A DNA stretch of 55,412 nucleotides from NCBI GenBank assembly GCA_029211065.1, contig JARGFK010000018.1, positions 1 through 55,412 of the forward strand. The letters are read 5' to 3'. This document shows positions 24,611 to 51,243 of this stretch, in pieces (positions within the stretch are counted from its first letter, which is position 1; each line of letters opens with the position of its first letter). The stretch comes from Desulfobacterales bacterium. GTDB lineage: Bacteria > Desulfobacterota > Desulfobacteria > Desulfobacterales > JARGFK01. The notes beneath the pieces were generated by a model. That model was given only the letters and a program-made list of their open reading frames with translations, made no database searches and was not told the DNA's origin. Position numbers and translations under genes: made by a program.

Positions 24611-25654
24611 CTAGTCGATCTTATCTGATTTGGCGGGCGGGTCTATATTTCCCCACAGGTACTGCGCATATTTGAAGTAGCCCTGGACGTTGTTCAGGCG
24701 GGCATCGATATGGGTTTCTACGGGCATAATGTTGCCGGCAATCAGCGGCTGTAAAAATTTAGCCAGCTCCATGGCGCCGCCGCCGCTGATAATGATGGCA
24801 TCAATATCCCAGTCATCGGCCCATAGTCGGGAGACGTCGCTGGCAATGATGCTGGCCGCGTGGGAAAACACCGAATCTTTGAGTTTTGAGATATTATATT
24901 CCTTTCCCCGGATTTTGATGAAACCCGTTCCGATGGCATCGTAAAGGCGATACAGCTCGATGTTCACCTTGCTTTCTTCCCGGAGCTTTTTGGCGATCAC
25001 GCCAAAGCTTTTGGCAATCCCGGTATCGGTTGTGCTGCTGCCCCGTTCGACATACTGCAGACCGTCAAAAATACAAAAATCGGTGGTTCGGAACCCGATG
25101 TCGATGACGCCGATTTTTTGTTTGGCCAGTTCACGATTGGTAATCTTTCCGCTTTCGTTCATCAGCACGTTAAAAATACTGCCAAGCGGCTGGGGAATTA
25201 TCCGTAAATTGTTGATATTGAGGCGCCTGGATTCACTGGCGCCATCGTTCTTTTGATAGCTGATTTCGTGGTTCCCCTTGAGCATTTTGGCAAAACGCTG
25301 GTGATACTCGCGGTAATAACCCACCGGCAGCCCGGTAACAATGTTCACAGGGGCATAGGTATCAAACAGATAGCCCATAGCGGTCAGGGCCAGGACCTTA
25401 CAAAAGTCGGTGAGAAGCTTTTCCTGGTCCAGTGTGAATTGCCGCGTGTTGGAATGATGCTCGGCAAAATCCCCCACAAAGTAACTCTGTCCGTCCAGCA
25501 AGACATGCATGCAGGGCCCGGCCTCGCTTTTTACGATGGGCAAACTGAACTGGATATCCGTGGCCTCCCCCAGTATGGATTTGAATAGGACAAATTCCTT
25601 ACCATCCGTGGCCTTGGTAAAACCGAATCCGATATCAATCCCTGCGACTTCCAT
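24611..25654 (-). CDS. ParM/StbA-like actin-family ATPase
   Basis: A 347-residue actin-fold protein of the ParM/Alp type. Phosphate loop 1 GIDIGFGFTKA is at residues 5-15, phosphate loop 2 IGVIDIGFRTTDF at 181-193, and the adenosine-binding motif IIISGGGAMELAKF at 287-300. ParM relatives polymerise with ATP and usually segregate plasmids. This copy sits among chromosomal genes with a partner that does not look like ParR. MreB and FtsA are excluded by length and motif spacing. The start has GGGGGAAG upstream, and a TTGACA-type promoter is visible at 25768-25796. Confidence 0.85.
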   Translation of the reverse strand: MEVAGIDIGFGFTKATDGKEFVLFKSILGEATDIQFSLPIVKSEAGPCMHVLLDGQSYFVGDFAEHHSNTRQFTLDQEKLLTDFCKVLALTAMGYLFDTYAPVNIVTGLPVGYYREYHQRFAKMLKGNHEISYQKNDGASESRRLNINNLRIIPQPLGSIFNVLMNESGKITNRELAKQKIGVIDIGFRTTDFCIFDGLQYVERGSSTTDTGIAKSFGVIAKKLREESKVNIELYRLYDAIGTGFIKIRGKEYNISKLKDSVFSHAASIIASDVSRLWADDWDIDAIIISGGGAMELAKFLQPLIAGNIMPVETHIDARLNNVQGYFKYAQYLWGNIDPPAKSDKID

Positions 25655-27433: not shown

Positions 27434-28126
27434 ATGACCGGGATGACGGACATGAAAAGCAGAAATAATGAGCAGTCAGTTCAGCGTCTGCGGGAGTTGC
27501 TGCAGAGCGGGCGATACCCGCAAGAGGGCCGCCTGCCCCCGGAACGGGAGCTGTCGGTGGAGCTGGGCATTTCACGGGCTGCCTTGCGAAAAGCGTTGTC
27601 GGTTCTGGAAGCGGAAAATTTGATCTGGCGGCATGTGGGGCGGGGAACATTTGTCGGCTCCCGAACCACGGGGAAGCACGAGGCCCGGTTCATGGTCGCC
27701 GAGATTACCAACCCGGCAGAAATCATGGAAGTCAGAATGGTTTTTGAGCCCAAAACGGCTGCTATCGCAGCGCTGCGGGCGACCCCCGGCAACCTTGAAA
27801 AGATCACCAATGCGCTGATTAAGTCCGAGGCGGCAACAGACCCGCTCTCTTTTGAGGTGTGGGACGGCGCCCTGCACCGGGCGATTGCCGCATCAACCGG
27901 AAATTCGCTTTTGGTTTCACTGTTTGAAGCGATCAACAGTTTGCGCGAAGACAAACTCTGGGGGCGGCTGAAAGAAGCCAGCTTTAATCGCGAGCGGCAT
28001 CAATTCTATTGCCGGCAGCACCGCAAGATGGTGGCGGCCATTGCCGACCGCGATGCGGCTGAAGCCGAACGGATGATGCGCATGCACCTGGAAGCCGTTC
28101 AGAAAAATTTACTGGGAAACCTTTAA
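27434..28126 (+). CDS. GntR-family regulator, FadR/FCD subfamily
   Basis: A 230-residue repressor or activator. The N-terminal winged helix-turn-helix contains LPPERELSVELGISRAALRKALSVLEAENLI. The C-terminal FCD ligand domain has the metal-binding Asp and His residues (WDGALHRAI, QHRKMV, MHLEAV) seen in members that bind small carboxylates. It probably senses a substrate of the neighbouring pathway and binds the two palindromes upstream of its own gene. Start choice among ATG 27434, 27443 and 27452 is open. The Fe-ADH gene follows by 34 bases. Confidence 0.88.
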   Translation: MTGMTDMKSRNNEQSVQRLRELLQSGRYPQEGRLPPERELSVELGISRAALRKALSVLEAENLIWRHVGRGTFVGSRTTGKHEARFMVAEITNPAEIMEVRMVFEPKTAAIAALRATPGNLEKITNALIKSEAATDPLSFEVWDGALHRAIAASTGNSLLVSLFEAINSLREDKLWGRLKEASFNRERHQFYCRQHRKMVAAIADRDAAEAERMMRMHLEAVQKNLLGNL

Positions 28127-28160
28127 ACAAATTTGAGCCTATTGATAACTAAGGAGAAGC

Positions 28161-29327
28161 ATGATGTTTGAAACAATACCATTTAAAACACCGTCGACTT
28201 TTTTCGGGATGGATACGATCCATCAGATCGGCGGTGAAGCAAAAAAACTGGGCGCGGGGAAAGTCTTGATCGTTACCGGTCCGTCGGTCAAAAAAGCCGG
28301 AATTTTAGATAAAGTCCTGTCGTTTTTGAACAAAGAAAGCCTGGCGGTGGAAGTCAATATACAGGAACGCGATACACCCGAGCCGGCCACCGATGTGGTT
28401 GAAGGGACGGCTGAACTTGCTAAAAAAGGAAATTTTGACGTGATTATCGGCCTGGGCGGCGGCAGTATTCTGGATGTGGCTAAAATGGCTTCCGCATTAA
28501 TGACCAATCCGGGCAAAACCAGAGATTATTTCGGCAAGGAAAAGGTTTCGATGCGGGGAAAGCCGACGATCATGGTTCCCACAACAGCCGGAACCGGGGC
28601 CGAGATGACCAAGCACGCTATTTTTCTGGATAGGGAGAGCGACGTCAAAAAGGCGGTGGCCTCCAATAATCTGCTGCCGAATGTCGCCATTATCGACCCG
28701 ATGCTGACAGTATCCTGCCCGGCGCATGTTACCGCCAGTTCCGGCATCGACGCCTTCATCCATGCGGCCGAACCGTTCATATCCAAAAACGCCAATGCGG
28801 TTACGGAGATCATTGCCCTGGAAGCCGTCCGGATCATCACCCGGTGGCTGGGACCGGCTTACGCCGATGGAAAGGATCTTGATGCCCGCTATTACATGTC
28901 TCTGGGGAGTATGATGTCCGGCATGGTCCTTAACAACTCCGGCACCAGTCTGGTGCATGCCCTGTCCTATCCCATCGGCGGCGAATACCACAGCCCCCAC
29001 GGTGTGACCTTGAGTGCGCTGCTGGCCACCTGTTTTGAATATGCCATTGTCGCCCGGCAGGATAAAATGGTCCGGCTGGCCGAAGCCATGGGAGAAAACG
29101 TGGAAGGGCTTTCCGCGCGGGAAGCCGCAATGCTGGCCCCGGAAGCCATCCGCGAACTCGTGGCCAGTGTCCGGCTGCCCAATTCGCTGACGGAACTGGG
29201 CGTAAAGGACCGGTCCAACCTGCAGTACTGGGCCGAGGAAGCCCACAAGGAGCAGCGGCTCTTGTCGCGCTCGCCGATCAATCTGTCGGTGGAAGATATC
29301 AAGGAAATTTACGAAAAAGCTTTTTAA
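28161..29327 (+). CDS. iron-containing alcohol dehydrogenase
   Basis: A 388-residue group III (PF00465) NAD(P)-dependent dehydrogenase. The nucleotide-binding part carries GLGGGSILDVAKM, and the metal ligands lie in GIDAFIHAAE and the later LVHALSYPIGGEYHSPHG. Family members interconvert alcohols or hydroxyacids with aldehydes or oxoacids. AAGGAGAAGC precedes the ATG. It sits between the FadR-type regulator and panB (11 bases), pointing to oxidation of an imported hydroxy compound before or after a PanB-catalysed step; this role is inferred. Confidence 0.92.
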   Translation: MMFETIPFKTPSTFFGMDTIHQIGGEAKKLGAGKVLIVTGPSVKKAGILDKVLSFLNKESLAVEVNIQERDTPEPATDVVEGTAELAKKGNFDVIIGLGGGSILDVAKMASALMTNPGKTRDYFGKEKVSMRGKPTIMVPTTAGTGAEMTKHAIFLDRESDVKKAVASNNLLPNVAIIDPMLTVSCPAHVTASSGIDAFIHAAEPFISKNANAVTEIIALEAVRIITRWLGPAYADGKDLDARYYMSLGSMMSGMVLNNSGTSLVHALSYPIGGEYHSPHGVTLSALLATCFEYAIVARQDKMVRLAEAMGENVEGLSAREAAMLAPEAIRELVASVRLPNSLTELGVKDRSNLQYWAEEAHKEQRLLSRSPINLSVEDIKEIYEKAF

Positions 29328-29338
29328 AGGAGAATAAG

Positions 29339-30193
29339 ATGAGCAAGAAGAAAAAATCAGTTCATGATTTTTTAAAGATGAAACAGTCCGGAGAGAAAAT
29401 AACCTTTCTGACCGCCTATGATTACCCCACGGCCCAGTTTGCCGAAGCAGCCGGATTGGACATGCTGTTGGTGGGCGATTCCCTGGGGATGTGCGTCTAT
29501 GGCTATAAGGGAACCGTTCCGGTGGTAATGGATCAGATGGTCCGGCATGCCGATGCCGTCCGGCGCGGCGCGCCCAATACGTTTGTGATCGGCGACATGC
29601 CGTTTATGAGCTATCAGAGCTCGACGGATAAAGCCGTTGAAAATGCCGGACGTTTTTTGAAAGAGGCTGACTGCGACGCCATCAAACTGGAGGGCGGGGT
29701 TCGGATCGCCTCAAAAATCCAGGCGATTGTAGATGCCGGCATTGTGGTAATGGGTCACATCGGCCTGACGCCGCAAAGCTCCGGGCAGCTGGGGGGCCAC
29801 AAGGCCCAGGGACGCACGGCCGAGGCTGCGAAACTGGTGGTGGAGGATGCCCTGGCGGTTGAAGCGGCCGGCGCCCAGATGATCCTGCTGGAAGCCGTTC
29901 CGCCGGAACTGGGCGCGTACATTACAAAAAGGCTGAAAATCCCGGCGCTGTCCATCGGGGCCGGGCCGGACTGCGACGGCCAGCTGCTGATCGTGTCGGA
30001 CATGATCGGGCAGTTCCAGGCCTTTACACCGAAATTTGTCAAGAAATACGGCCAGGTGGCGGAGATGGTCACCGGCGCTATGAAAGTCTACTGTGAAGAG
30101 GTGCGCGCTGGAAAGTTCCCGGCCGAGGAGCACTGCTACCGCATGCTGGCGGGCGAAGATGAGAAGTTTTTTAAATTAGTGGGAAAAGAATAG
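29339..30193 (+). CDS. panB: ketopantoate hydroxymethyltransferase-family protein (PanB)
   Basis: A 284-residue PanB, which transfers a hydroxymethyl group from methylene-tetrahydrofolate to 2-oxoisovalerate, the first step of pantothenate synthesis. The catalytic and Mg-binding residues are intact: Asp47 (VGDSLG), Asp86 (GDMPF), Lys116 and Glu118 (KLEGG), His140 (GHIGLTPQ), Glu185 (LLEAVP). What is odd is the setting: no panC, panD or panE is nearby, and it lies in an operon with a regulator, Fe-ADH and a TRAP transporter. It may act in a catabolic retro-aldol direction or on another 2-oxoacid. Confidence 0.9.
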   Translation: MSKKKKSVHDFLKMKQSGEKITFLTAYDYPTAQFAEAAGLDMLLVGDSLGMCVYGYKGTVPVVMDQMVRHADAVRRGAPNTFVIGDMPFMSYQSSTDKAVENAGRFLKEADCDAIKLEGGVRIASKIQAIVDAGIVVMGHIGLTPQSSGQLGGHKAQGRTAEAAKLVVEDALAVEAAGAQMILLEAVPPELGAYITKRLKIPALSIGAGPDCDGQLLIVSDMIGQFQAFTPKFVKKYGQVAEMVTGAMKVYCEEVRAGKFPAEEHCYRMLAGEDEKFFKLVGKE

Positions 30194-30300
30194 ATAAGTA
30201 CCAACCCTTGGCGGTCATTTCACGCCGGACGGGCGTCACGTGCGGCCGGTGGATGCAAATGGCTAAACCGAAAAATCTTTATCTAAAGGAGGAAAGACAT

Positions 30301-31290
30301 ATGAAGTGGCTATCAGGCAAAAGCAAACAACACAAAGGTCTGTTGCTGGTCGCGGTTCTGGCCATGGTTCTCTTGCTGGCCGGACCGGTTGCAGCCCAGG
30401 AAAAAATGAACATTTCCTTTGGCGGATCGACCCCCGGCGGCATGATGTATTATCTTGTGGGGGGTGCCGGGACCATCATCACACGGGAGCTTCCCCAGTA
30501 CAACATTACCCAGGTTTCCACGGGCGGTTCCACCGAGAACTGTAAGCGCCTGGTGAAGGGGGAGCTGGATATGGGGATTGTCTATGGACCCCATGTCTAT
30601 ATGGCGCTGAACAATCAGGGGCCGTTTGAAAAAGATCCCAAAGGCACCATGCTGCGAGGTGTTGCCAAGATTTATGCCGGTGCATCTTATGCCGTAACAC
30701 TGCCGGGTTCCGGAATTAAAAGCATGAATGACCTCATCGGCAAGACGGTTGCACTGGGACCGCCGGGCTCCGGTACGGTTTTTAACAGCGAGAATGTCCT
30801 GCGGGCCCTGGGGTTGCTGGAAAAAATCAAGCCGCGCATGATGTCTTTTGCCGATGCCGGCCGTGCAGTTGAAAACAGACAGATTGATGCCTTCTTCCAG
30901 TCCTCGGCGCCGGCGGGCGCCGTAACGACGCTGGCGGAGACAAAGGGCGCCTATGTGATTCCGTTTACGGACGCGGAAATGGCAAAAATTATTAAGGACT
31001 ATCCGTTTTACTACACCGGCATCATGAAAAAAGGGGTCTATAAAAATGTCCCGGAAACACAGATGCCCTATCTGACCGTCTATTGGGTAGCCCATGAGCG
31101 GGTGCCGGAAAAGGCCATCTATGACATCACCAACCTGGTCTTCCAGCCGAAGATCTTTAAGGAATTGGGCGATGCCCACAAGGGCTGGAAACAGATGGAG
31201 CCGGATACCAAACTGTTCCTCAAGCTGGGTGCGCCCATGCATCCGGGTGCTGAAAAATATTACAAAGAAAAAGGTCAGTGGCAGGAATAA
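30301..31290 (+). CDS. TAXI-family TRAP transporter solute-binding protein
   Basis: A 329-residue periplasmic binding protein with a cleaved signal peptide (KGLLLVAVLAMVLLLAGPVAAQ) and the TAXI-type opening ISFGGSTPGGMMYYLVGGAG, then STGGSTENCKRLVKGELDMG. It captures an organic acid and delivers it to the fused permease encoded next. ATG at 30301 is chosen because AAAGGAGGAAAGACAT lies directly upstream; a longer frame from 30208 has no site. A stable hairpin follows the gene. Confidence 0.92.
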   Translation: MKWLSGKSKQHKGLLLVAVLAMVLLLAGPVAAQEKMNISFGGSTPGGMMYYLVGGAGTIITRELPQYNITQVSTGGSTENCKRLVKGELDMGIVYGPHVYMALNNQGPFEKDPKGTMLRGVAKIYAGASYAVTLPGSGIKSMNDLIGKTVALGPPGSGTVFNSENVLRALGLLEKIKPRMMSFADAGRAVENRQIDAFFQSSAPAGAVTTLAETKGAYVIPFTDAEMAKIIKDYPFYYTGIMKKGVYKNVPETQMPYLTVYWVAHERVPEKAIYDITNLVFQPKIFKELGDAHKGWKQMEPDTKLFLKLGAPMHPGAEKYYKEKGQWQE

Positions 31291-39639: not shown

Positions 39640-39681
39640 AAAAAGCTTGACATATTGTGTTTGGTATACAATATTCCAAAC
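39640..39681 (+). promoter_or_regulatory. promoter/operator of dctPQM, twin of 47581-47622
   Basis: This 42-base stretch is identical to the reverse complement of 47581-47622 except at one position. It contains TTGACA (39647-39652) and, 17 bases on, AATATT as a -10. The GntR-like palindrome TTGGTATACAA (centre GTATAC) lies between them. One copy precedes dctP and the other precedes gntR, so both operons are expected to be controlled by the same FCD-type regulator. Confidence 0.85.
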
Positions 39682-39772
39682 AACAATGGGTTTTATCTTG
39701 GGGTATGATATAGGGATAGATACCAATGCAAGACATGGGGTTTGACTATTAACCAAAAGGAGGTAAATCATC

Positions 39773-40744
39773 ATGAAAAAAGGTTTAATAATACTGTGTG
39801 TGGCAGTTCTGGCGTTGGGTCTGGTTCAAACCGCCAGCGCCCTGGAAATTGTTTTTGCCATCAGTGCTGCACCGGGATCGACTCAGTATATTACGGCCGA
39901 AGAGTTTACGCGTCGGGCAAATGACCTGCTCGGTGACAAGGCCAAGGTGACATTTTACGGCTCAGGCCAGCTGGGTGATGATAAAGACCTGATGCAGAAA
40001 CTGAAACTCGGTACCGTCCATCTGTCCATGCCTTCCTCGATCATGTCTTCGATTGCCGGTGAAGCAGGCCTTTTTGACATGCCGTTTCTAATCAAAGATC
40101 GTGCGCATCTGAACCGTATTGAACATAAGGTTTTCTGGCCGATGATTGCGCCGGCCATTGAAAAGAAAGGTTACAAGGTTCTCGGTTTCTGGGAAAACGG
40201 CATCCGGCACATTACCAACAATGTCAGGCCTATTGTAACGCCGGAAGACCTAAAAGGGGTAAAGATCCGAACCCCCAAAAGCACCTGGCGTGTCAAAATG
40301 TTCACGGCCTGGGGGGCAAATCCGACGCCGATGGCCTTTTCAGAAGTCTTTGTGGGGCTGCAGACCGGTGTCATCGACGGCCAGGAAAACCCGTTTACCA
40401 ATATCTATGCGGCTAAGTTTCAGGAAGTACAAAAATATCTGTCAGTCACCGCGCATGTTTACACCCCTTCTTTTTTAACAACGGGCGCCGGACCGTGGGC
40501 CAAGCTTCCGGCGAATGTGCGTACGATTCTCGAAAAAACCGCACGGGATGTCCAGGGCTGGATGTACGCCATGGGAGCCCAGGACGATCAAACCCTCCTG
40601 GAAAAACTGGGGGCCAACATGAAGGTGAACACAGCCGATCGCGCTGCCTTTGTCAAGGCCAGCATGCCCATCTATGATGAATTCGCCAAAGAGATTTCTT
40701 CCGGCAAGGCGATGATCGACCTGGCACTCAAACTGGCCGACTGA
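39773..40744 (+). CDS. dctP: TRAP transporter DctP-family solute-binding protein
   Basis: A 323-residue periplasmic binding protein with a signal peptide (GLIILCVAVLALGLVQTASA). The DctP signature is visible: GQLGDDKDLMQKLKLGTVHL, the ligand-carboxylate-binding Arg in VKIRTPKS, and VIDGQENPFTNIYAAKF. DctP proteins bind carboxylates, including sugar acids, and pass them to DctQM. AAAGGAGGTAAATCATC precedes the ATG. It is the first gene of dctPQM. Confidence 0.94.
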   Translation: MKKGLIILCVAVLALGLVQTASALEIVFAISAAPGSTQYITAEEFTRRANDLLGDKAKVTFYGSGQLGDDKDLMQKLKLGTVHLSMPSSIMSSIAGEAGLFDMPFLIKDRAHLNRIEHKVFWPMIAPAIEKKGYKVLGFWENGIRHITNNVRPIVTPEDLKGVKIRTPKSTWRVKMFTAWGANPTPMAFSEVFVGLQTGVIDGQENPFTNIYAAKFQEVQKYLSVTAHVYTPSFLTTGAGPWAKLPANVRTILEKTARDVQGWMYAMGAQDDQTLLEKLGANMKVNTADRAAFVKASMPIYDEFAKEISSGKAMIDLALKLAD

Positions 40745-40764
40745 TTAAGAATCCCCATTAGCCG

Positions 40765-40788
40765 CCGGCCTCCGATCCCGGAGGCCGG
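40765..40788 (+). terminator. intercistronic hairpin after dctP
   Basis: CCGGCCTCC (40765-40773) pairs perfectly with GGAGGCCGG (40780-40788) around a 6-base loop, without a T run. It probably stabilises the dctP end of the message, raising binding-protein yield over the permease. It is the second such hairpin in the window; the other follows the TAXI gene. Confidence 0.7.
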
Positions 40789-40810
40789 TAAACTCACAGG
40801 GATGTAGGGT

Positions 40811-41344
40811 ATGTTTAACAAGCTGAACCGATGGTTTGGGCGGCTCCTGGAGGCTGTGTCAATCACTATACTGATCAGCCTTGCGTTTATTGTGGTGCTG
40901 GCCGTAGTGTTCCGATACAGCGGTTCTTCGCTGGTCTGGTACGACGAAGTCGCCTCGGTTCAGTTGGCCTGGCTGACGTATTACGGGGCGGCCCTGGCAG
41001 CTCTTAAACGCGGACACCTGGGCTTTTCTGGCTTGTTCCTGAAACTGCCGGTAGGAATCAGGTCCATCTGTTTTGTAATTGCCGAGATGTTCGTCATCGG
41101 TTTTTTTTGTGTAATCGGCTGGGCAGGATGGCATCTGCTGGGAGTCTTTGGAGAAGAAACCCTGGTCAGTATTGCATGGGTTCCCTTGAAATTTACCCAA
41201 TCCGTCATCCCCATTGGTGCGGCTCTGTTTATCCTGGCTGAACTTTTCAGCATCCCGGATGCCTGGCGAAATGCCATGGCCGGCACCGATTATGAGCAGC
41301 GGGCGATCGAAACGGCTGTTAAAGAAGCGGAGAATGCATCATGA
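40811..41344 (+). CDS. dctQ: TRAP transporter small permease DctQ
   Basis: A 177-residue inner-membrane protein with four hydrophobic segments, the usual size and topology of DctQ. The conserved WYDEVASVQLAWLTYYGAALAALKRGHLGF covers the second segment and its loop. It forms the membrane complex with DctM, whose start codon overlaps its stop (ATGA). Confidence 0.93.
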   Translation: MFNKLNRWFGRLLEAVSITILISLAFIVVLAVVFRYSGSSLVWYDEVASVQLAWLTYYGAALAALKRGHLGFSGLFLKLPVGIRSICFVIAEMFVIGFFCVIGWAGWHLLGVFGEETLVSIAWVPLKFTQSVIPIGAALFILAELFSIPDAWRNAMAGTDYEQRAIETAVKEAENAS

Positions 41345-42624
41345 TCGTTACGCTGTTGATTATTGGCATGTTGTTTCTCGTGATGATCAATGTGCCCATT
41401 GCGGTCGCTCTCGGAATCACGGCAATAGCCGGCATGGTAATTTCTAAAGGGTTTGACAGCATCTTCAACGCCGGCCTGACGATGTTTGCCGGGGCCACCA
41501 ATTTTCCCCTGCTGGCTATACCCTTGTTTATTCTGGCCGGTGCGCTCATGAATACCACCAGCATCTCGCGGCGGCTTATCAACCTGACGTCTGCACTGAT
41601 CGGTTTTGTCCGGGGCGGTCTGGCAATGGTCAATGTCGGCGTATCCATGTTCTTTGCGGAAATTTCAGGATCGGCCGTTGCCGACGTTGCCGCTCTGGGG
41701 TCGGTGTTGATTCCCGCGATGAAACGACGGGGATACACCGCAAAATTTTCAGCAGCGGTAACCTCATCGTCGGCATCCATAGCTATTATTATCCCGCCGT
41801 CGATTGCCATGATTATATACGGCGCCCTGTCAGACACGTCCATCGTTCAGCTGTTTGTTGCCGGCATCATTCCCGGAGTCATCGGCGGTTTTTCAATGAT
41901 GGGATATTGCTACTGGTATGCGCTGCGCCACGATCTCCCCCGTGAAGAAGCGTTTAGTCTTGCCCGCTTGTGGAAAGCATTTAAAGAGGCCGGATGGGCT
42001 CTGATGCTGCCGGTTATTATCCTCGGCGGGATCTTCGGCGGCATCGTAACGGCCACTGAAGGTGCCGGTCTGGCGGTGATTGCGGCGCTTTTCATTGGGG
42101 GGGTGCTTTACCGGGAGCTTAACCTGGAGCATCTATGGAAAGCCATGATAGAAGGGGTCATGCAGACAGCAGTAGTGATGCTCCTAGTGGCCACATCGGC
42201 CGTGCTCGGCCTTTATCTAACGGAAGCCCAGGTTCCTCAAGCATTTGCCCGGTGGGTGATCAGTATCAGCGGTAATAAATATGCCGTGCTGGCATTGCTA
42301 AACTGCATGCTCTTTGTGGTCGGAATGTTTTTACACGGTGCTGCGGCGATTATTCTGGTGGTTCCGATTGTGATGCCGCTGATTAACCAGATCGGGGTCG
42401 ATCCGGTTCAATTCGGACTGATCATGACGCTCAATATTGCTATTGGACAGCAGACGCCGCCGGTGGCCAGTGTTCTGGTAACCGCATGTTCCATCGCCAA
42501 GACCGACATCTGGAAGACGACCAAAGTCAATATCCCCTTTATCGGTGTTCTGCTGATTGTTCTGCTGCTCGTAACCTATGTGCCGGCCGTACCGCTGACG
42601 CTGGTTGAGTTCTTTTATCGCTGA
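41341..42624 (+). CDS. dctM: TRAP transporter large permease DctM
   Basis: A 427-residue protein with about 12 membrane segments. It shows the DctM hallmarks ATNFPLLAIPLFILAGALM, FAEISGSAVADVAALGSVLIPAMKRRGY and FLHGAAAIILVVPIVMPL. It carries out ion-coupled import of the DctP ligand. It overlaps dctQ by 4 bases and ends 77 bases before the convergent FGGY kinase gene. Confidence 0.95.
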   Translation: MIVTLLIIGMLFLVMINVPIAVALGITAIAGMVISKGFDSIFNAGLTMFAGATNFPLLAIPLFILAGALMNTTSISRRLINLTSALIGFVRGGLAMVNVGVSMFFAEISGSAVADVAALGSVLIPAMKRRGYTAKFSAAVTSSSASIAIIIPPSIAMIIYGALSDTSIVQLFVAGIIPGVIGGFSMMGYCYWYALRHDLPREEAFSLARLWKAFKEAGWALMLPVIILGGIFGGIVTATEGAGLAVIAALFIGGVLYRELNLEHLWKAMIEGVMQTAVVMLLVATSAVLGLYLTEAQVPQAFARWVISISGNKYAVLALLNCMLFVVGMFLHGAAAIILVVPIVMPLINQIGVDPVQFGLIMTLNIAIGQQTPPVASVLVTACSIAKTDIWKTTKVNIPFIGVLLIVLLLVTYVPAVPLTLVEFFYR

Positions 42625-42701
42625 CACCTGGTACATGATCCAAAAGGGGCAGGCGCAAGCATTGCTAAAAGGACATGTTGGATCTACCGGCCGAGTCGGA
42701 T

Positions 42702-44255
42702 TTAACCCCCCTTGTTTATCCATACCTGGGGCAGGTCCATCCTGGCAAGCTCCGCAAAATGATGCTGCACTTCGGTGTAGAGTTTTTTGTACATTGGAAA
42801 CAGGCGGCTGTATGCATCGTGAGCTTTGGGATTCGGGCGGAACTCATTTCCCGGCACCACTGTTTTATTGATGGCCGTTTTAAAATCCGAATAAACATTG
42901 ATACTGATTCCAGCCAACACAGCCGCACCCAGAACTTCGGTGTGGCTTTGGGTCAGGCTGACCACATGTTTTCCCAGCACATCCGCAATAATCTGATTCC
43001 AGACACCGCTGGTGGCCGCAGCGCCGCCAATCCGCAGCGTCTGGATATCAAGCCCGCAATCGGTTTCAAGGATTTCAATCACGTGCCGGATCGCAAAAGC
43101 CGGTCCTTCCAGTACGGAGCGTAAAAAGTCATTGCGGTTATGGCCTAACGTAATGCCGAAGAAAACCCCACGGGCGTATGGGTCCCAAATAGGGGTCCGC
43201 TCTCCGGATATATATGGCAAAAACAACAGGCCCTTACTTCCCGGCGGCGACAAGGCGGCCTGGGCCGTCAGCAAATCGTATACATCCCGGCCGGAGGCGG
43301 CAGCGGCGGCCTGCTCCATCTGTCCAAATGTATCCCTGACCCATCGCAGCGATGAACCCACACCGTTAATGGCGCCGATGGAAAGCCAGCGCTGTGGAAG
43401 GACATGGGCGCAGTTCATGAAACGGTTGTCAAAACGGGGTTCTCCCAGAGGTGATGATACCCGGGCAGCGGTTCCCATGATGACAAAACAGTCACCGGGC
43501 TGCATTACACCGGAACCGATAGAGGCGCCGATGGTATCCATGCATCCCGCCGTAACGGGGGTACCAGGCCTCAAGCCGGTCAGGGCGGCGGCGGCACTTA
43601 CGTTGCCGGCGATTTCCTGGGACGGCAGGGGGGTGGGGAGCTTATCGACTGATATTTCCAGTGCTTCTAAAAAAGGTTCATGCCATTTCATCTTGCGGAT
43701 GTCAAAAAGAAGGGTCGTGCAGGCCCGGGAGTAGTCTATGGTGAATTCACCGGTTAATCGCGCCACCAGATACCCCCCCGGCACCATGAGTTTATGGGCC
43801 TTTTCAAATGTTTCAGGCTCATGGTGCTTTAACCACAAAATGGTCGGCAGCGAGTAGGCGCCCGGCGCCACAGGGTTGCCGGTAACGCTGAACACCTGAT
43901 CAGGGTCAAGTGTCTGGCGAATCCGTTCCACTTCAGGCAGAGCGCGTTGATCCCACAGCATGATGGCCGATCGCAGCGGCCGACCGATACGGTCAACCGC
44001 AATCAGGCCGTTGGTGCAGCCGACACCCACCGCAAGGATATCATCGGCTGAAATGCCACTGATGGCCTTGCGAATTGCCTGGATCGTTGCCTGCCACCAG
44101 GCTTCAGCATCTTGTTCAGCCTGTCCCGGCAGGGTGTTGATCATTTTATATTCACTATATCCCGTTCCCACCAGTTTTCCATCAAGGGTAAACACTCCTG
44201 CTTTGGATCCGGTTCCGCCGATATCGATCCCCAGTAAGAACGGTCCTTGTATCAT
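42702..44255 (-). CDS. FGGY-family carbohydrate kinase (xylulokinase-like)
   Basis: A 517-residue FGGY kinase with two actin-like domains. The N-terminal phosphate motif is LLGIDIGGTGSKAGVF, the substrate-region VLWDQRA-type segment reads IMLWDQRALPEVE, and the FGGY C-terminal signature ends with GGAAATSGVWNQIIADVLG. It phosphorylates a sugar, polyol or sugar acid at a terminal hydroxyl. It is the last gene of the gntR operon; with PdxA2 and an epimerase upstream, the substrate is likely a short-chain polyhydroxy acid or ketose, but this cannot be fixed from sequence. Confidence 0.9.
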   Translation of the reverse strand: MIQGPFLLGIDIGGTGSKAGVFTLDGKLVGTGYSEYKMINTLPGQAEQDAEAWWQATIQAIRKAISGISADDILAVGVGCTNGLIAVDRIGRPLRSAIMLWDQRALPEVERIRQTLDPDQVFSVTGNPVAPGAYSLPTILWLKHHEPETFEKAHKLMVPGGYLVARLTGEFTIDYSRACTTLLFDIRKMKWHEPFLEALEISVDKLPTPLPSQEIAGNVSAAAALTGLRPGTPVTAGCMDTIGASIGSGVMQPGDCFVIMGTAARVSSPLGEPRFDNRFMNCAHVLPQRWLSIGAINGVGSSLRWVRDTFGQMEQAAAAASGRDVYDLLTAQAALSPPGSKGLLFLPYISGERTPIWDPYARGVFFGITLGHNRNDFLRSVLEGPAFAIRHVIEILETDCGLDIQTLRIGGAAATSGVWNQIIADVLGKHVVSLTQSHTEVLGAAVLAGISINVYSDFKTAINKTVVPGNEFRPNPKAHDAYSRLFPMYKKLYTEVQHHFAELARMDLPQVWINKGG

Positions 44256-44314
44256 AAATGCGTCATTCCTCAGTTTATAAAAGGATCAAAACATTGCAGC
44301 AATAAAGCGCTTCA

Positions 44315-44974
44315 TCATGAGTGGTTTAAAATTTGGTTTATTTTAGGGGCAATAAAATCCAGGCTGGAAAAGACGCGGTTTTTAACGGACTCTTCCATAC
44401 GCTCCCTGACCCGCAGAATGGAAATCTGAGCCAGCAAGACCCCATCCGTTTCGATCAAGAGTTTTTTGACCGTATTCACCACTTCGGTATCATGACCCTG
44501 AATATCGCCCCTATCGAGCTTTTTAAAAGCATCCGGACACAGGCGGGGAATCAGGGTGACGTTCCTGCCCAGCTTTTGGCAGACTTCTTCAAACAGGAGC
44601 CTGGAGGGCTTTTCGGTGGTGGGATTGGTCATGAGCAGGCCGATACGTTTATAATTTTTTACGGCATATGCCATCATGGGCTCATCGATTTTCAAGACCG
44701 GAATATGCACCTTTTTGCGCACGTCGTTGACGCCAGGCGAAAGGGATGAACAACTTACCACCGCCAGAGAGGCGCCGGCTTTTTCGGTGGAAAGCACCAT
44801 GGCTGTCAGCCAGTCGAGAATTTCCGGGCTTATCTTGCCGGCAGCGGTCAGTTCACGCAGAATGCCTTCGTCCAGCACATGGACAATTTCGGCATCCGGG
44901 CATTGCGTGGCAACTACTGTCTGAATGGCATCAATCACCAGGCGGGTCGAATGGACAAGTCCTACCAGGGGCAT
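44315..44974 (-). CDS. Asp/Glu racemase-superfamily protein with one catalytic Cys
   Basis: A 219-residue protein of the Asp/Glu/hydantoin racemase superfamily. The first nucleophile is present as Cys75 (VVSCSSLSPG), but the place of the second is occupied by Gln183 (LLAQISI), so a classical two-base racemisation is unlikely. Single-Cys members include decarboxylases and isomerases (arylmalonate decarboxylase type). It lies between pdxA2 and the FGGY kinase gene and presumably acts on a pathway intermediate. Confidence 0.8.
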   Translation of the reverse strand: MPLVGLVHSTRLVIDAIQTVVATQCPDAEIVHVLDEGILRELTAAGKISPEILDWLTAMVLSTEKAGASLAVVSCSSLSPGVNDVRKKVHIPVLKIDEPMMAYAVKNYKRIGLLMTNPTTEKPSRLLFEEVCQKLGRNVTLIPRLCPDAFKKLDRGDIQGHDTEVVNTVKKLLIETDGVLLAQISILRVRERMEESVKNRVFSSLDFIAPKINQILNHS

Positions 44975-44992
44975 CGTTTAGCCTCGCTCATA

Positions 44993-45991
44993 TTATTGTT
45001 TTTCTGCCAGCTGACAAGCAATTTTAAAGGCCCTGATCATTGCCTCCGGGTTGGCCCTACCCTCACCGGCTCTGCCGAAAGCCGTACCGTGCGCCGGGGT
45101 GGTAATCGGCACCGGCATCCCCCCATGAAGCGTCACGCCCTTATCAAAACCCAGCAGTTTCGTGGCGATTTGGCCCTGGTCGTGATACATTGAAACAACA
45201 CCGCGAAAACCCTCCCGTTTAACCCTTAAAAAAATCGTATCCGCCGGAAACGGTCCCGCAACATCCATTCCGTTTTCACGGGCCGTTTGAATGGCCGGAA
45301 CAATGATCTCGATCTCTTCCCTTCCGCACTTTCCATTTTCGCCGGCATGGGGGTTTAACGCCGTTACGGCAATGCGCGGGGCTTCGATCCCGAACCGCTT
45401 CAACTGATCATTCAGCAAACTGATGGTTTCAATAATACGCTTGCCGGTGATCAGAGAGCTGACATCTTTCAGCGGCACGTGGGACGTCACCCGAGTCGTC
45501 CACATGTCTTCCAAGACATTGATCTCCCCATGGATATGAGGCCGGTTAAAGCGGTCTTTGAACAGCTCGATTTCAGCGTGATAAGGACAGCCCCCCAACC
45601 CCATGGCTTCCTTGTGAAACGGCCCAAAGACAAATCCATCAATTTTTTTGTCCCGAGCGAGTTTTAAGGTAAAATCGAGGGTCTCATAAACAGATTTGCC
45701 GGCGGTGGCGCTTATTTTTTTGTAAGTGACCGCTTCCGGTGAAATGGTGGGAAAGTCCAGGACGACCGGCTGTTCTCTATCCCTGGGCAAATCGTCTATC
45801 TGTTTGATGATAGGAAATGTAAATTCAGCACCGATTACCTGTTGACCCATTTTGAAAATCCGCTGATCTCCGATGAGCACAATCCGGGCCAATCCATACA
45901 ATTGCTTTTCAGAGAGAAGTTTTGCAACAATTTCAGGGCCAATGCCGGTCGGATCTCCCAGCAGCAGGCCGATAACAGGTTTTTGTTTCAT
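44993..45991 (-). CDS. pdxA2: PdxA2-like 4-phosphohydroxyacid dehydrogenase
   Basis: A 332-residue PdxA-family, metal- and NAD-dependent oxidative decarboxylase. It opens with GLLLGDPTGIGPEIV. Metal ligands His171 (TSHVPL), His215 (NPHAGE) and His270 (YHDQG) are present. The Thr in GDPTGIGPE and the catabolic context favour the PdxA2 branch (D-threonate 4-phosphate dehydrogenase and relatives) over vitamin B6 synthesis. AAGGAG precedes the ATG. PdxA2 usually pairs with a DUF1537 kinase, whereas here the kinase in the operon is FGGY-type. Confidence 0.85.
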   Translation of the reverse strand: MKQKPVIGLLLGDPTGIGPEIVAKLLSEKQLYGLARIVLIGDQRIFKMGQQVIGAEFTFPIIKQIDDLPRDREQPVVLDFPTISPEAVTYKKISATAGKSVYETLDFTLKLARDKKIDGFVFGPFHKEAMGLGGCPYHAEIELFKDRFNRPHIHGEINVLEDMWTTRVTSHVPLKDVSSLITGKRIIETISLLNDQLKRFGIEAPRIAVTALNPHAGENGKCGREEIEIIVPAIQTARENGMDVAGPFPADTIFLRVKREGFRGVVSMYHDQGQIATKLLGFDKGVTLHGGMPVPITTPAHGTAFGRAGEGRANPEAMIRAFKIACQLAEKQ

Positions 45992-46032
45992 GAATATTCT
46001 CCTTGTGCAGATGGTATTGAAATATTAGCAAT

Positions 46033-46857
46033 TCAGTTGAAATTATATTTTTCGATTAGCGGCAGGATATAATCCGCAGCTTGCCTGGCAGCGGTATCGG
46101 CATCCGGCAGGGGGAGGATTTCAATGGCGGCCCAGCCTTTGAATCCGGCTTTTTTCAGGCCGTCAAAAACATTATCAAAATCCAGATGCCCCTGGCCGGG
46201 TGCGTGGCGGTTGGAATCGGCCAGGTGGACATATTTTATCTGGGAGCCAAGCCGGGCGAGGGTAGCCCCGATTTTTGCGTCCTCGATATTCATGTGAAAA
46301 ACGTCGGGCATCAGCCCTGTGTTTGGTCGTTTCACTTTTTTGATTAATTCAGCGCCATCCTCCGACGAATTAATAAAATTAATTTCGTATCGATTCACCG
46401 GTTCAACAACAATTGTGACTGCATCTTTAGCCGCGATATCACATAACTGCTGCATGGTTTCGAGAAAAAGTATTTCCGCTTCAGCAGCCTTTTGTCCCGC
46501 GCCGATAAACCCCCTCGCTCTTCCCACATTAATCAGTCGACCGAAATTTTTGGCCAGATAGATCAGCCCGGTAAATACCTCAATGACCCGCCGGCGGGCG
46601 GCAGGGTCCGGGTGGGTAAAATAAAGGTTCGATTCGGCAAAGACAAGGCCGGTACTGATAGCGCTGACCTCCATCCGGTTTGCTGAAAGCCAGCGAGATA
46701 ATTTTTCCGGATCGATATCGTCAGCAGATTTTAATGCCAGCTCAACACCGTGATATCCGAAATCTGAGGCCTTTTGAATCGATTCCTCGAAGCCACGCCA
46801 TACGACAAATGCCGAGGGCGGGGCGTCCGCCCCGGCAATGACTACGGAAAGTTTCAC
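46033..46857 (-). CDS. xylose-isomerase-like TIM-barrel epimerase
   Basis: A 274-residue TIM-barrel sugar isomerase/epimerase. Metal ligands appear as Glu152 (VVEPVNR), Asp185 (MPDVFHMN), His211 (VHLADSNR) and Glu246 (AIEIL). By my reading it resembles the ketose 3-epimerase/5-keto-L-gluconate epimerase type (DSNRHAPGQGHLDF). The start is GTG at 46857, overlapping the gntR stop (GTGA). It probably reshapes a keto-sugar acid in the island's pathway. Confidence 0.82.
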   Translation of the reverse strand: MKLSVVIAGADAPPSAFVVWRGFEESIQKASDFGYHGVELALKSADDIDPEKLSRWLSANRMEVSAISTGLVFAESNLYFTHPDPAARRRVIEVFTGLIYLAKNFGRLINVGRARGFIGAGQKAAEAEILFLETMQQLCDIAAKDAVTIVVEPVNRYEINFINSSEDGAELIKKVKRPNTGLMPDVFHMNIEDAKIGATLARLGSQIKYVHLADSNRHAPGQGHLDFDNVFDGLKKAGFKGWAAIEILPLPDADTAARQAADYILPLIEKYNFN

Positions 46858-47522
46858 GAACGCCCGACCTTTTCGTAATCATCCAGCTGGTTTAAAATAT
46901 GTTTTTTCATCAGTGTTTCGGCTAAAGCTTTATCTCTGGTTTTCATGGTATTGATAATTTCAGCATGCTGGCCGACGTAGGACTTCAGCTTGTTCAGCGG
47001 CAGACGTAAAATCAGACGCAGGAGTTGAACTTTCGCATCAAGTTTTTCGACAATTTCATATAAATGACGGTTGCCGGTCCGCCGGGCAATTTCAAGGTGG
47101 AGCAGGCTGTCTTTTTCAAACAAAGCACCCACGTCGCCGGCGCCGATCAATTCATCACATTCGACAGCCAAGGCTTCCAGTTCCTTAAAATCAGCTTCGG
47201 TTGCGCGTTCTGTCAAAAGGCTCACCGCGAGTATTTCCAGCTGTGCGCGGATACATGCGATTTGTTCGGCCTCTTGCGGTTCAAGGGCAACAACCGTTGC
47301 ATAGCTTCTCGGTTTTATACGGATAAGACCGTATTCCTCTAATCGTTTCAGAGCTTCCCGGATGGGTGTTCGGCTGACACCAAATTGCTGGGCAACCTTT
47401 TCTTCCGGGATTTTTTCGCCGCCGCGAATTTCACCCGATAAAATCAGACGTTTAATATACTGATAAACCTGTTCCGACAGGCTTTGACGCTGGATCGCAT
47501 AGATGGTTTTATCGATCTTCAT
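46854..47522 (-). CDS. GntR-family regulator with FCD domain (island regulator)
   Basis: A 222-residue regulator. The winged helix-turn-helix is at residues 15-70 (EEKVAQQFGVSRTPIREALKRL). The C-terminal FCD domain has its metal ligands intact: Asp138, His142, His186, His208. It is first in its operon and sits directly behind a promoter/operator nearly identical to that of dctPQM, so it very likely regulates itself and the transporter in response to the imported compound. Confidence 0.93.
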   Translation of the reverse strand: MKIDKTIYAIQRQSLSEQVYQYIKRLILSGEIRGGEKIPEEKVAQQFGVSRTPIREALKRLEEYGLIRIKPRSYATVVALEPQEAEQIACIRAQLEILAVSLLTERATEADFKELEALAVECDELIGAGDVGALFEKDSLLHLEIARRTGNRHLYEIVEKLDAKVQLLRLILRLPLNKLKSYVGQHAEIINTMKTRDKALAETLMKKHILNQLDDYEKVGRS

Positions 47523-47580
47523 GTTGTTTTAAGTCCTCATCCATGATCGGGAACACAAATAGCTTTAATAAAAAAATATC

Positions 47581-47622
47581 GTTTAGAATATTGTATACCA
47601 AACACAATATGTCAAGCTTTTT
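47581..47622 (-). promoter_or_regulatory. promoter/operator of gntR operon, twin of 39640-39681
   Basis: The reverse complement of this stretch equals 39640-39681 with one mismatch in 42 bases. It carries TTGACA and the GTATAC-centred palindrome 59 bases upstream of gntR. Confidence 0.85.
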
Positions 47623-47806: not shown

Positions 47807-48193
47807 TTACTCGGAAAAGGCATCTTCTTCATAGATAACATAAGAGTCGGGACCAGTCGGTTTTGAAAAAATGGATGCCGTTACCAAATCCGTTTCACCG
47901 GTGTTTCGGACCTGGTGCTTGGAATTTGCCGGGAACAGGACGGCATCCCCCTTTTTAAATGTTGTCGAATGTCCATCAACCCAGGCCTCGCCTTGACCAT
48001 CAAGGATTAGTATCACTTCTTCAATATCTTTATGGCTGTGAAGCGGTTTTACAACAGATTTAGGAAAGCAGTTCATTATCGCGATACTCAACGATTCAGC
48101 CCCGATGGTTTCCGGGGTGACGATCCAGCGGAGATCGCGACCGCTTAAATGCATGGGTTCGATGTCATCCAGACTGGCTTTTCTTACGGCCAT
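47807..48193 (-). CDS. cupin-domain protein
   Basis: A 128-residue single-domain cupin. The metal-binding motifs are KPLHSHKDIEEVILILDGQGE (His-x-His, Glu) and the second motif FPANSKHQVRN with its His. The ATG at 48193 follows GGAGGGAAATGTG; the earlier GTG is less likely. Small cupins of this type act as isomerases, dioxygenases or sensor domains, and no substrate can be named. It is separated from gntR by 284 bases and may or may not belong to the island. Confidence 0.85.
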   Translation of the reverse strand: MAVRKASLDDIEPMHLSGRDLRWIVTPETIGAESLSIAIMNCFPKSVVKPLHSHKDIEEVILILDGQGEAWVDGHSTTFKKGDAVLFPANSKHQVRNTGETDLVTASIFSKPTGPDSYVIYEEDAFSE

Positions 48194-48468
48194 CACATTT
48201 CCCTCCTATCAGATTTAACGGATATAGGTCCTTTAGCGTTTGTGAAAAGTTTAAACAAAATGGACGTATTTCTTAAAAGGCCGAGCATTCTGAAATGGTT
48301 CAACCTGATGTTTCAGTAAAACTATCTGCAGCAAACTTTTTTTTCAACATTAAATTGAAAAGATCGTTAGCCCGGCTATGGGAATGATTTCATCTGTACA
48401 TTTCAGATCCACTGTGTTAATTTTTTTATAATTTACTTTGTTTGGGTATAGACAACAAAGGACACAGA

Positions 48469-49558: not shown

Positions 49559-50332
49559 ATGCCCCGATTCAGCGCAAATTTGAGCATGCTGTTCACGGAA
49601 GTTGATTTTATGGATCGCTTTAAATTGGCTGCCAAAGCCGGTTTTAAAGCCGTGGAATATTTGTTTCCTTATGCCTGGCCGTCCGAACAGCTGGCGGATG
49701 CGTTAAAGCAAAATGGGTTAAAACAGGTGCTTTACAATCTGCCCGCCGGTAAGTGGGAGGCCGGCGAGCGGGGGATTGCGGGCTTTCCGGATCGGATTGA
49801 TGAATTCAAATCCGGCGTTGAGCAGGCAATCCCTTATGCCAAGGCGCTCGGATGCCCACGGCTGAATTGTCTGGTCGGCATTGTTCCTTCCGGGGTTCGC
49901 CCGGAGGTATTTCGTGAGACGCTGGTTAAGAACTTAAGGTTTGCCGCAGCAGCACTTGAAAAGGAGAAGATTCAGCTGCTGGTGGAGATGCTCAATACTA
50001 AGGACGTGCCCGGTTTTTATCTGTCTCGGACAGCAGATGCGCTGGCATTGGTGGACGAGGTCGATCATCCCAATCTCTGGCTGCAGTATGATATCTATCA
50101 CATGCAAATCATGGAGGGCAACCTGACCCAAACGATCAAGTCGCATCTTGAGCGGATTGCGCACATGCAGCTGGCAGATGTTCCGGGGCGACATGAACCC
50201 GGCACCGGCGAAATTAATTTTACAAAGCTGTTTCTGTCGATTGATCAGGCCGGTTATGCGGGCTGGATCGGGTGTGAATATATCCCCAGTCGGCAAACAG
50301 AGGAGACGCTCACATTTATAAAAAATAGGTAG
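49559..50332 (+). CDS. hyi: hydroxypyruvate isomerase-family protein (Hyi/OtnI)
   Basis: A 257-residue TIM-barrel protein very like E. coli Hyi in length and motifs (PRFSANLSMLFTEVDF, FLFPYAWP-type EYLFPYAW, GRHEPGTGEINF, GWIGCEYIPS). It interconverts hydroxypyruvate and tartronate semialdehyde, or in the OtnI branch isomerises 2-oxo- and 3-oxo-tetronate. GGAGG 9 bases before ATG 49559 decides the start. The adjacent garR-like gene (14 bases) acts on tartronate semialdehyde or threonate, matching either pathway. Glyoxylate carboligase is not in the window. Confidence 0.9.
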   Translation: MPRFSANLSMLFTEVDFMDRFKLAAKAGFKAVEYLFPYAWPSEQLADALKQNGLKQVLYNLPAGKWEAGERGIAGFPDRIDEFKSGVEQAIPYAKALGCPRLNCLVGIVPSGVRPEVFRETLVKNLRFAAAALEKEKIQLLVEMLNTKDVPGFYLSRTADALALVDEVDHPNLWLQYDIYHMQIMEGNLTQTIKSHLERIAHMQLADVPGRHEPGTGEINFTKLFLSIDQAGYAGWIGCEYIPSRQTEETLTFIKNR

Positions 50333-50346
50333 CAAAGGAGGAAAAA

Positions 50347-51243
50347 ATGGCGGATATCGGATTTATTGGACTGGGAATAATGGGAAAACCGATGGCAGGA
50401 CATCTGGTTGCGGCCGGCCATACGGTTCGGGTTTATGATCATCATAATCCACCGGTTAAGGAGCTGTCTGGAAAAGGTGCGGTGGCTTGCGGCAGTTCCG
50501 CTGAAGTTGCGGAAAAAGCGGATATCATCATTATCATCGTCCCGGACACCCCCGATGTGGAGGCGGTTCTGTTCGGACCCAAGGGTGTGGCTGAGACGGT
50601 CAGAAAAGGTTCAATCGTTGTGGATATGAGCTCCATTTCGCCGATTGCCACAAAGGAGTTTGCCGAAAAGCTTGCAGCCAAAGGCGTTGAAATGCTGGAT
50701 GCGCCGGTGTCCGGAGGACAGGTCGGCGCTGAAAATGCGACCCTGTCCATTATGGTCGGCGGGAAAGCGGACGTGTTTGCCAAAATTAAACCATACTTTG
50801 AACTGATGGGTAAAAATATTGTTCACATCGGCCCCAGCGGCGACGGTCAGACCTGTAAAGTGGCCAATCAGATCGTGGTGGCTTTGACCATTGAGGCCGT
50901 GGGTGAAGCGCTGCTCCTGGCGGCTAAAGCCGGGGCCGACCCGGCCAAAGTAAGGGAAGCGCTTTTAGGGGGGTTTGCCCAAAGCCGCATCCTTGACCTG
51001 CATGGTCAGCGTATGATCGCGCGCACGTTTAAACCGGGATTCAGGATCCGTTTGCACCAGAAAGATTTAAACCTGGCGCTGCAGACGGCACGAAGCCTGG
51101 GACTGAGCCTGCCGAATACCGCCACGGCCCAGGAGCTGTTTAATGCCGTGGCTGCGCAGGAGAAGGGCGCAGACTTGGATCATTCCGCCATGGTGCTGGC
51201 GCTGGAAAAGCTTGCCAACTATGCGGTTGACGGTTCGAAGTGA
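50347..51243 (+). CDS. garR: 2-hydroxy-3-oxopropionate reductase-like (GarR/LtnD)
   Basis: A 298-residue beta-hydroxyacid dehydrogenase with Rossmann motif GFIGLGIMGKPMA, DAPVSGGQVGAENATLSIMV and catalytic Lys171 (CKVANQ). The C-terminal FKPGFRIRLHQKDLNLAL is typical of GarR. It reduces tartronate semialdehyde to glycerate, or could be an L-threonate dehydrogenase. Pairing with hyi supports a two-step route from hydroxypyruvate or 2-oxo-tetronate. AAAGGAGG precedes the ATG. Confidence 0.9.
   Translation: MADIGFIGLGIMGKPMAGHLVAAGHTVRVYDHHNPPVKELSGKGAVACGSSAEVAEKADIIIIIVPDTPDVEAVLFGPKGVAETVRKGSIVVDMSSISPIATKEFAEKLAAKGVEMLDAPVSGGQVGAENATLSIMVGGKADVFAKIKPYFELMGKNIVHIGPSGDGQTCKVANQIVVALTIEAVGEALLLAAKAGADPAKVREALLGGFAQSRILDLHGQRMIARTFKPGFRIRLHQKDLNLALQTARSLGLSLPNTATAQELFNAVAAQEKGADLDHSAMVLALEKLANYAVDGSK

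Follow-up and report, generated by a model that had tools for sequence, protein, structure and literature searches.

A putative sugar-acid regulon pairing a PdxA-like dehydrogenase with an FGGY kinase under a shared 42-nt site in a Desulfobacterales bacterium

Contig JARGFK010000018.1 of a Desulfobacterales bacterium (assembly GCA_029211065.1), analysed here over all its 55,412 nucleotides (nt) and referred to as the window, carries two convergent operons between positions 39640 and 47622, and a copy of the same 42-nt element stands before each of them. The plus-strand operon, dctPQM, encodes a TRAP transporter, and the minus-strand operon encodes a GntR/FCD regulator, an IolO-like TIM barrel, a PdxA-like dehydrogenase, a racemase-fold protein and an FGGY kinase. 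The 3' ends of dctM (42624) and of the kinase gene (42702) are separated by 77 nt. We propose, with about even confidence, that this island is a substrate-induced sugar-acid regulon, in which the PdxA-like enzyme converts a free aldonate to a ketose by oxidation and decarboxylation before the FGGY kinase phosphorylates that ketose. Gene families were assigned with Pfam and NCBIfam profiles, and the features are as follows.

39640..39681, plus strand: putative operator/promoter copy 1, 5' of dctP; TTGACA at 39647, 17 nt, AATATT, with an ATATTGT...ACAATAT dyad and a GTATAC core embedded
39773..40744, plus strand: dctP, TRAP solute-binding protein (PF03480, 291.6 bits; nearest solved relatives 4nq8, 4ovs, 4pdh and 4p9k)
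40811..41344, plus strand: dctQ, TRAP small permease (PF04290, 70 bits)
41341..42624, plus strand: dctM, TRAP large permease (PF06808, 387 bits)
42702..44255, minus strand: FGGY carbohydrate kinase, XylB-like (PF00370/PF02782; XylB model, 350.9 bits)
44315..44974, minus strand: Asp/Glu-racemase-fold protein with a single conserved Cys, C75 (PF01177)
44993..45991, minus strand: PdxA-like dehydrogenase of an E-type subfamily, with phosphate-binding residues replaced (PF04166, 293.8 bits)
46033..46857, minus strand: IolO-like TIM barrel, 5-keto-L-gluconate epimerase/ketose 3-epimerase family (NF041099, 238 bits)
46854..47522, minus strand: GntR/FCD transcription regulator, first gene of the minus-strand operon (PF00392 and PF07729, both above cut-off)
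47581..47622, minus strand: putative operator/promoter copy 2, 5' of gntR
47807..48196, minus strand: small cupin protein (PF07883)

Compared with the NCBIfam equivalog cut-offs, the scores of the kinase (350.9 against 380.25 for XylB), the IolO-like protein (238.2 against 300) and the PdxA-like protein (269.5 against 290.35 for PdxA) were all too low, and therefore no catabolic enzyme of the operon attains a named function. The gene families given in an earlier note on this DNA were confirmed at the Pfam level, but its use of PdxA2 as a functional label was not, as the active site of the PdxA-like protein makes clear.

The PdxA-like protein was aligned in a residue table with Escherichia coli PdxA, with 6e85 (a D-threonate-4-phosphate dehydrogenase) and with the PdxA proteins of 80 GTDB loci. 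In E. coli PdxA numbering, the metal ligands H166, H211 and H266 as well as K274 are retained, and H136, T137, N283 and R292, which we take to be the residues holding the substrate and its phosphate, have become E, I, T and I. All four are kept in 6e85 and in a DUF1537-linked PdxA of Rhodococcus, and neither H136 nor R292 is kept in any of the 80 relatives (0/80). The seven PdxA-like proteins that are linked to an FGGY kinase all have E136, L or I at 137, T283 and I292, and the invariant residues of the subfamily include E140, E156, R167 and T287 (window numbering). Since substrate-phosphate residues common to PdxA and D-threonate-4-phosphate dehydrogenase are lost, the PdxA2 label was rejected. 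An AlphaFold model (pLDDT 88.9) matched PdxA (1yxo/1ps6) with a Z of 38 over 320 residues and a root-mean-square deviation (rmsd) of 2.1, and matched terephthalate dihydrodiol dehydrogenase/decarboxylase (8zhy/8zj7) with a Z of 32-33, so that the predicted fold, together with the metal ligands, places the protein in the PdxA superfamily.

The surroundings of the relatives differ from those of PdxA2, which, according to the earlier note, normally partners a DUF1537 kinase. The window operon has no such kinase, the only DUF1537 protein of the genome being OtnK, 21 kilobases away, and one lies nearby in just 4 of the 80 relatives, most of which have neither a DUF1537 nor an FGGY kinase close to them. 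By a reading of the sequences made without a profile check, the usual neighbours at the 80 loci resemble TctA/TctC transporters, enolase-superfamily proteins, amidohydrolases and GntR regulators. No FGGY kinase was seen in the available flanks of these relatives, although in one case the operon turned out to be split over two contigs.

That case is Syntrophaceae bacterium CG2_30_58_14. One of its contigs carries the site as TTGACATATTGTGTTTGGTGTACAATATCCCAAAC (33/35 identical) together with the GntR regulator (78% identical) and the PdxA-like protein (56%), and the other carries the racemase-fold protein (64%), the FGGY kinase (77%) and another TIM barrel. The two contigs share an exact overlap of 194 nt. 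When they are joined, the order is site-tctC-tctB-tctA-gntR-pdxA-racemase-FGGY-TIM, and a TTT transporter takes the place of the TRAP transporter. A search of 155 Syntrophia-class genomes yielded five more FGGY orthologs, so that orthologs with 76-77% identity are present in six genomes of that class. Each of the five has a PdxA-like gene as its immediate neighbour or is separated from it by the racemase gene alone, and the same four residue changes are found in their PdxA-like partners. In three of the five operons, gntR and tct genes are present too, and tctC is preceded by a weaker site with 4-5 mismatches (loci L137, L139 and L140); the remaining two lie on short contigs. No FGGY ortholog was found in 388 other genomes of the window's own order, which suggests horizontal transfer; among plasmids, the kinase had no match above 37%.

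When the seven operons are compared, the PdxA-like and FGGY genes are present in 7/7 and the racemase gene in 3/7. Racemase remnants lie between the two genes at L137 (10057-10378) and L139 (6503-6687), and by sequence reading a small VOC (glyoxalase)-like protein is encoded after the FGGY gene in L137-L139; thus, the racemase seems to have been lost in L137 and L139 and was perhaps functionally replaced. The IolO-like gene occurs in the window operon only, and L126 and L141 carry a different TIM barrel. Because the racemase, IolO-like and VOC genes come and go while the other two stay, the isomerases look accessory and the PdxA-like/FGGY pair looks like the core. Some of the orthologous operons thus lack the racemase and the epimerase that the earlier note had counted in its enzyme set. 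Wider clusters without a kinase (L033, L036, L037 and L097) combine the PdxA-like, racemase, IolO, VOC or cupin and TctABC genes, and three of these four also encode a split transketolase. Separately, a Clostridium locus (L127, 5653-12782) has TRAP genes, a 40% identical FGGY relative and both transketolase halves adjoining, in a genome that also has a kinase-less PdxA-like cluster; a link of the window-type FGGY group to transketolase is possible from this arrangement.

As for the kinase itself, both FGGY_N and FGGY_C domains and the catalytic Asp (GCMDT) are present, which identifies it as an FGGY kinase. The XylB model scored best (350.9 bits), ahead of gluconokinase (277 bits) and glycerol kinase (184.6 bits), and the L126 ortholog reached 354.5 bits with the XylB model. 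The QMHG motif of XylB is CTNG in the window protein.

The accessory proteins can be described in similar terms. In the racemase-fold protein C75 is invariant, and the position of the second catalytic Cys is held by an invariant Ala182, followed by the likewise invariant Q183 and S185. The protein therefore has one catalytic-type Cys only, as the earlier note had described it, and is not a two-Cys Asp/Glu racemase; its model superposes on 1jfl (Z 22.1, 211 residues, rmsd 2.6), which points to membership of that superfamily by fold. As a marker for finding the system, the racemase was of little use: only two distant matches (28-35%) were found in 291 genomes of the window's class, and plasmid matches are located near OtnK/DUF1537 or unrelated genes. 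Distant relatives in rhizobia, haloarchaea and Rhodococcus (L018, L019, L020 and L022) have OtnK/DUF1537 kinases and class II aldolases next to them or close by, so the single-Cys family may serve four-carbon acid-sugar pathways in general. The IolO-like protein matches TM0416 with 164 bits and keeps the metal and catalytic residues. The cupin (47807..48196) is 78% identical over 127 amino acids to one at 6154-6534 of L033, and since the latter lies inside a PdxA-racemase-IolO cluster, the window cupin probably belongs to the system as well.

In the route that we infer, the sugar acid would be imported by DctPQM, and the PdxA-like enzyme would oxidise the C3 hydroxyl of the free (unphosphorylated) aldonate with NAD. 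The beta-keto acid would then lose CO2 to give a ketose one carbon shorter, and the FGGY kinase would phosphorylate this free ketose; most likely the acid is a hexonate and the ketose a pentulose, which would yield a pentose-phosphate intermediate. Stereochemistry may be adjusted, before or after oxidation and decarboxylation, by the single-Cys racemase-fold protein and the IolO-like enzyme, with 3-epimerisation optional. This order, that is, import, oxidation/decarboxylation and phosphorylation, appears the likeliest because the PdxA-like protein has lost its phosphate-binding residues and adjoins a kinase of a free-ketose type. Also in its favour, the PdxA fold is known to carry out oxidative decarboxylation of an acid without phosphate in the terephthalate dihydrodiol enzyme, the kinase scores best with XylB, and the related clusters that have no kinase encode a split transketolase instead. 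Several points weigh against this proposal. First, the closest Syntrophaceae PdxA-like protein (L034, 9992-10999) has IPLAGE for NPHAGE and thus lacks the metal ligand H211, which five sister operons retain. Second, with a rearranged pocket the enzyme could still accept a phosphorylated acid. Third, the specificity of the FGGY kinase can hardly be read from sequence, as the XylB score is below the cut-off and QMHG is changed to CTNG. Finally, the two-enzyme operons would also suit the conversion of a four-carbon acid to dihydroxyacetone.

The last point leads to the main alternative on chain length, in which the order is likewise inverted but a tetronate (threonate or erythronate) is converted by the PdxA-like enzyme to free dihydroxyacetone and by the FGGY kinase to dihydroxyacetone phosphate. 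We consider it unlikely, although the shortest operons seem to need only these two enzymes, and two steps would take a four-carbon acid as far as a central metabolite; binding proteins of TRAP systems are on record for pantoate/D-erythronate (PMC5812351), and the window also encodes OtnK, a GarR-like reductase and an OtnI/Hyi-like isomerase. However, the kinase is nearer to XylB than to glycerol kinase, dihydroxyacetone has no C3 stereocentre on which a ketose 3-epimerase could act, and the split transketolase of the related kinase-less clusters is not expected to take dihydroxyacetone as a donor.

Another possibility is the conventional order, a D-threonate-type pathway with a swapped kinase, in which FGGY would take over the role of the DUF1537 kinase and phosphorylate the acid after import, and the PdxA-like enzyme would then oxidise the phosphorylated acid. 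In the D-threonate pathway as it is quoted in PMC9997740 from Zhang et al. 2016, the DUF1537 kinase indeed comes first and PdxA2 second, and some FGGY kinases act on sugar acids, as the score with the gluconokinase model also allows. We nevertheless regard this order as rather improbable, since every FGGY-linked member and nearly all of the 80 relatives have exchanged the four substrate-phosphate residues and carry a carboxylate (E) where the phosphate used to be bound, and since most of these relatives have no kinase of either type nearby. The order that we propose, oxidation and decarboxylation of the free acid followed by phosphorylation of the ketose, is the reverse of that in the D-threonate pathway.

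The regulation of the island can be considered from its two 42-nt elements. The stretch 39640-39681 on the plus strand and 47581-47622 on the minus strand are reverse-complementary at 41/42 positions, exactly where the earlier note had placed them, and its description of one copy before dctPQM and the other before the convergent gntR operon is also accurate: copy 1 ends 91 nt before dctP and copy 2 ends 58 nt before gntR. A 29-nt core is present in exactly two copies in the window, with 0 expected from 100 shuffles, and a 21-nt core occurs at these two places only in the whole 4.94-Mb assembly, even with up to 3 mismatches allowed. Both copies contain a 10/12 promoter match (TTGACA-17-AATATT). 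The 17-nt spacer holds the dyad, and its GTATAC (a GT-N2-AC core) is presumably of the type bound by FCD-type GntR proteins, and a site with such a core co-occurs with the GntR regulator in several genomes. In Syntrophaceae CG2_30_58_14, the site recurs as TTGACATATTGTGTTTGGTGTACAATAT before tctCBA-gntR-pdxA-racemase-FGGY-TIM. The idea of a shared regulator site is thus supported: different genera have the element upstream of orthologous genes, and the same GntR protein accompanies it. We suggest that the GntR/FCD protein binds both elements, each overlapping a promoter, and would keep dctPQM as well as its own operon repressed until it is released by the acid or by an early intermediate.

Alternatively, the repeat might be a recently copied, constitutive promoter to which no regulator binds, as its good TTGACA box and nearly identical copies could indicate. 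This is very unlikely, because the flanks of the two copies, compared over 60 nt on either side, agree at only 13/60 and 16/60 positions, which is the chance level, so that the 42-nt element alone is common to both places and a recent segmental duplication is excluded; moreover, the 17-nt spacer between the hexamers is palindromic and as conserved as the hexamers themselves, and the same element with the same GntR exists in a genome of a different class. Lastly, that the PdxA-like protein is an ordinary vitamin B6 PdxA placed in a sugar operon by chance was rejected as extremely improbable, even though it is the sole PdxA-family protein of the genome, because PdxJ was not found in the genome, one clear PdxS is present, the score is under the PdxA equivalog cut-off and the phosphate residues are lost.

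More broadly, and more tentatively than for the window itself, we propose that a sister group of PdxA, which is widespread and for which the usual annotation is the vitamin B6 enzyme 4-hydroxythreonine-4-phosphate dehydrogenase, could consist of decarboxylating dehydrogenases for free sugar acids. In Syntrophia-class bacteria and in the lineage of the window, its members would work with an FGGY kinase, so that two enzymes take the acid by way of a ketose to the ketose phosphate, and a single conserved GntR operator would control them. If this is true, an additional sugar-acid degradation route would exist in anaerobic bacteria of the sulfate-reducer type and in syntrophic bacteria. A common misannotation would also be corrected, as the active-site residues could show which PdxA-family proteins probably have no B6 or PdxA2 function. 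In addition, with its single transporter, regulator and site and its two core enzymes, the island would offer a compact test set.

Other genes of the window stand out as well. OtnK (3-oxo-tetronate kinase, DUF1537; 22723-23997) directly follows asnS with no other pathway genes adjoining. At 49559-51243, an OtnI/hydroxypyruvate-isomerase-like gene precedes a GarR-type tartronate semialdehyde reductase gene, both above their NCBIfam cut-offs, and the 42-nt site is not in front of this pair; together with OtnK, these genes may form a separate tetronate or glyoxylate route. A second GntR/FCD regulator gene, followed by genes for an iron alcohol dehydrogenase, PanB (ketopantoate hydroxymethyltransferase) and an NMT1_3-family (TAXI-type) binding protein, lies at 27434-31290 and looks like another uptake-catabolism cluster. 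A ParM/archaeal-actin-like ATPase is encoded at 24611-25654, in an apparently chromosomal setting.

When the island is compared with known systems, it resembles the D-threonate, L-threonate and D-erythronate pathways (Zhang et al. 2016) in the uptake of an acid sugar, the use of a kinase and a PdxA-family decarboxylating dehydrogenase, and the feed into central metabolism. It differs from them in having FGGY instead of the DUF1537 kinase, a PdxA-like enzyme without the phosphate-binding residues, probably reversed steps, a GntR/FCD regulator, an accessory IolO-like epimerase and a single-Cys racemase-fold protein. TphB (terephthalate 1,2-cis-dihydrodiol dehydrogenase/decarboxylase) is similar in that it has the PdxA fold, uses NAD and acts by oxidation and decarboxylation on an acid that bears no phosphate, but its substrate is an aromatic dihydrodiol and it is 25% identical to the window protein, which is closer to PdxA/PdxA2 (30-37%). 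The yiaKLMNO-lyxK-sgbHUE genes of E. coli serve 2,3-diketo-L-gulonate/3-keto-L-gulonate catabolism. Common to both are a TRAP transporter, an FGGY kinase, a TIM-barrel 3-epimerase and, if our model holds, a step in which a 3-keto hexonate is decarboxylated to the pentulose stage, whereas in the window decarboxylation would use a PdxA-family dehydrogenase and epimerisation would act on the free ketose (IolO type), and the operon has no SgbH/SgbE gene. For the individual enzymes, XylB is the best-scoring FGGY subfamily, with the catalytic Asp kept, but the window kinase is below its cut-off and has an altered sugar-binding motif; IolO (TM0416) matches over the whole length with its key residues, but the window protein is again below the cut-off and no inositol pathway genes are in the operon. 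The earlier note could name no pathway for the enzyme set. For the FGGY and PdxA-family pair, too, we found no matching described pathway, and among open-licence papers there was nothing on this gene set or on a PdxA-like free-acid enzyme. Sugar-acid pathways with a PdxA-family enzyme and a kinase are already known, and what would be new here is the reversed order of the steps, the FGGY partner and a PdxA subfamily that does without the substrate phosphate.

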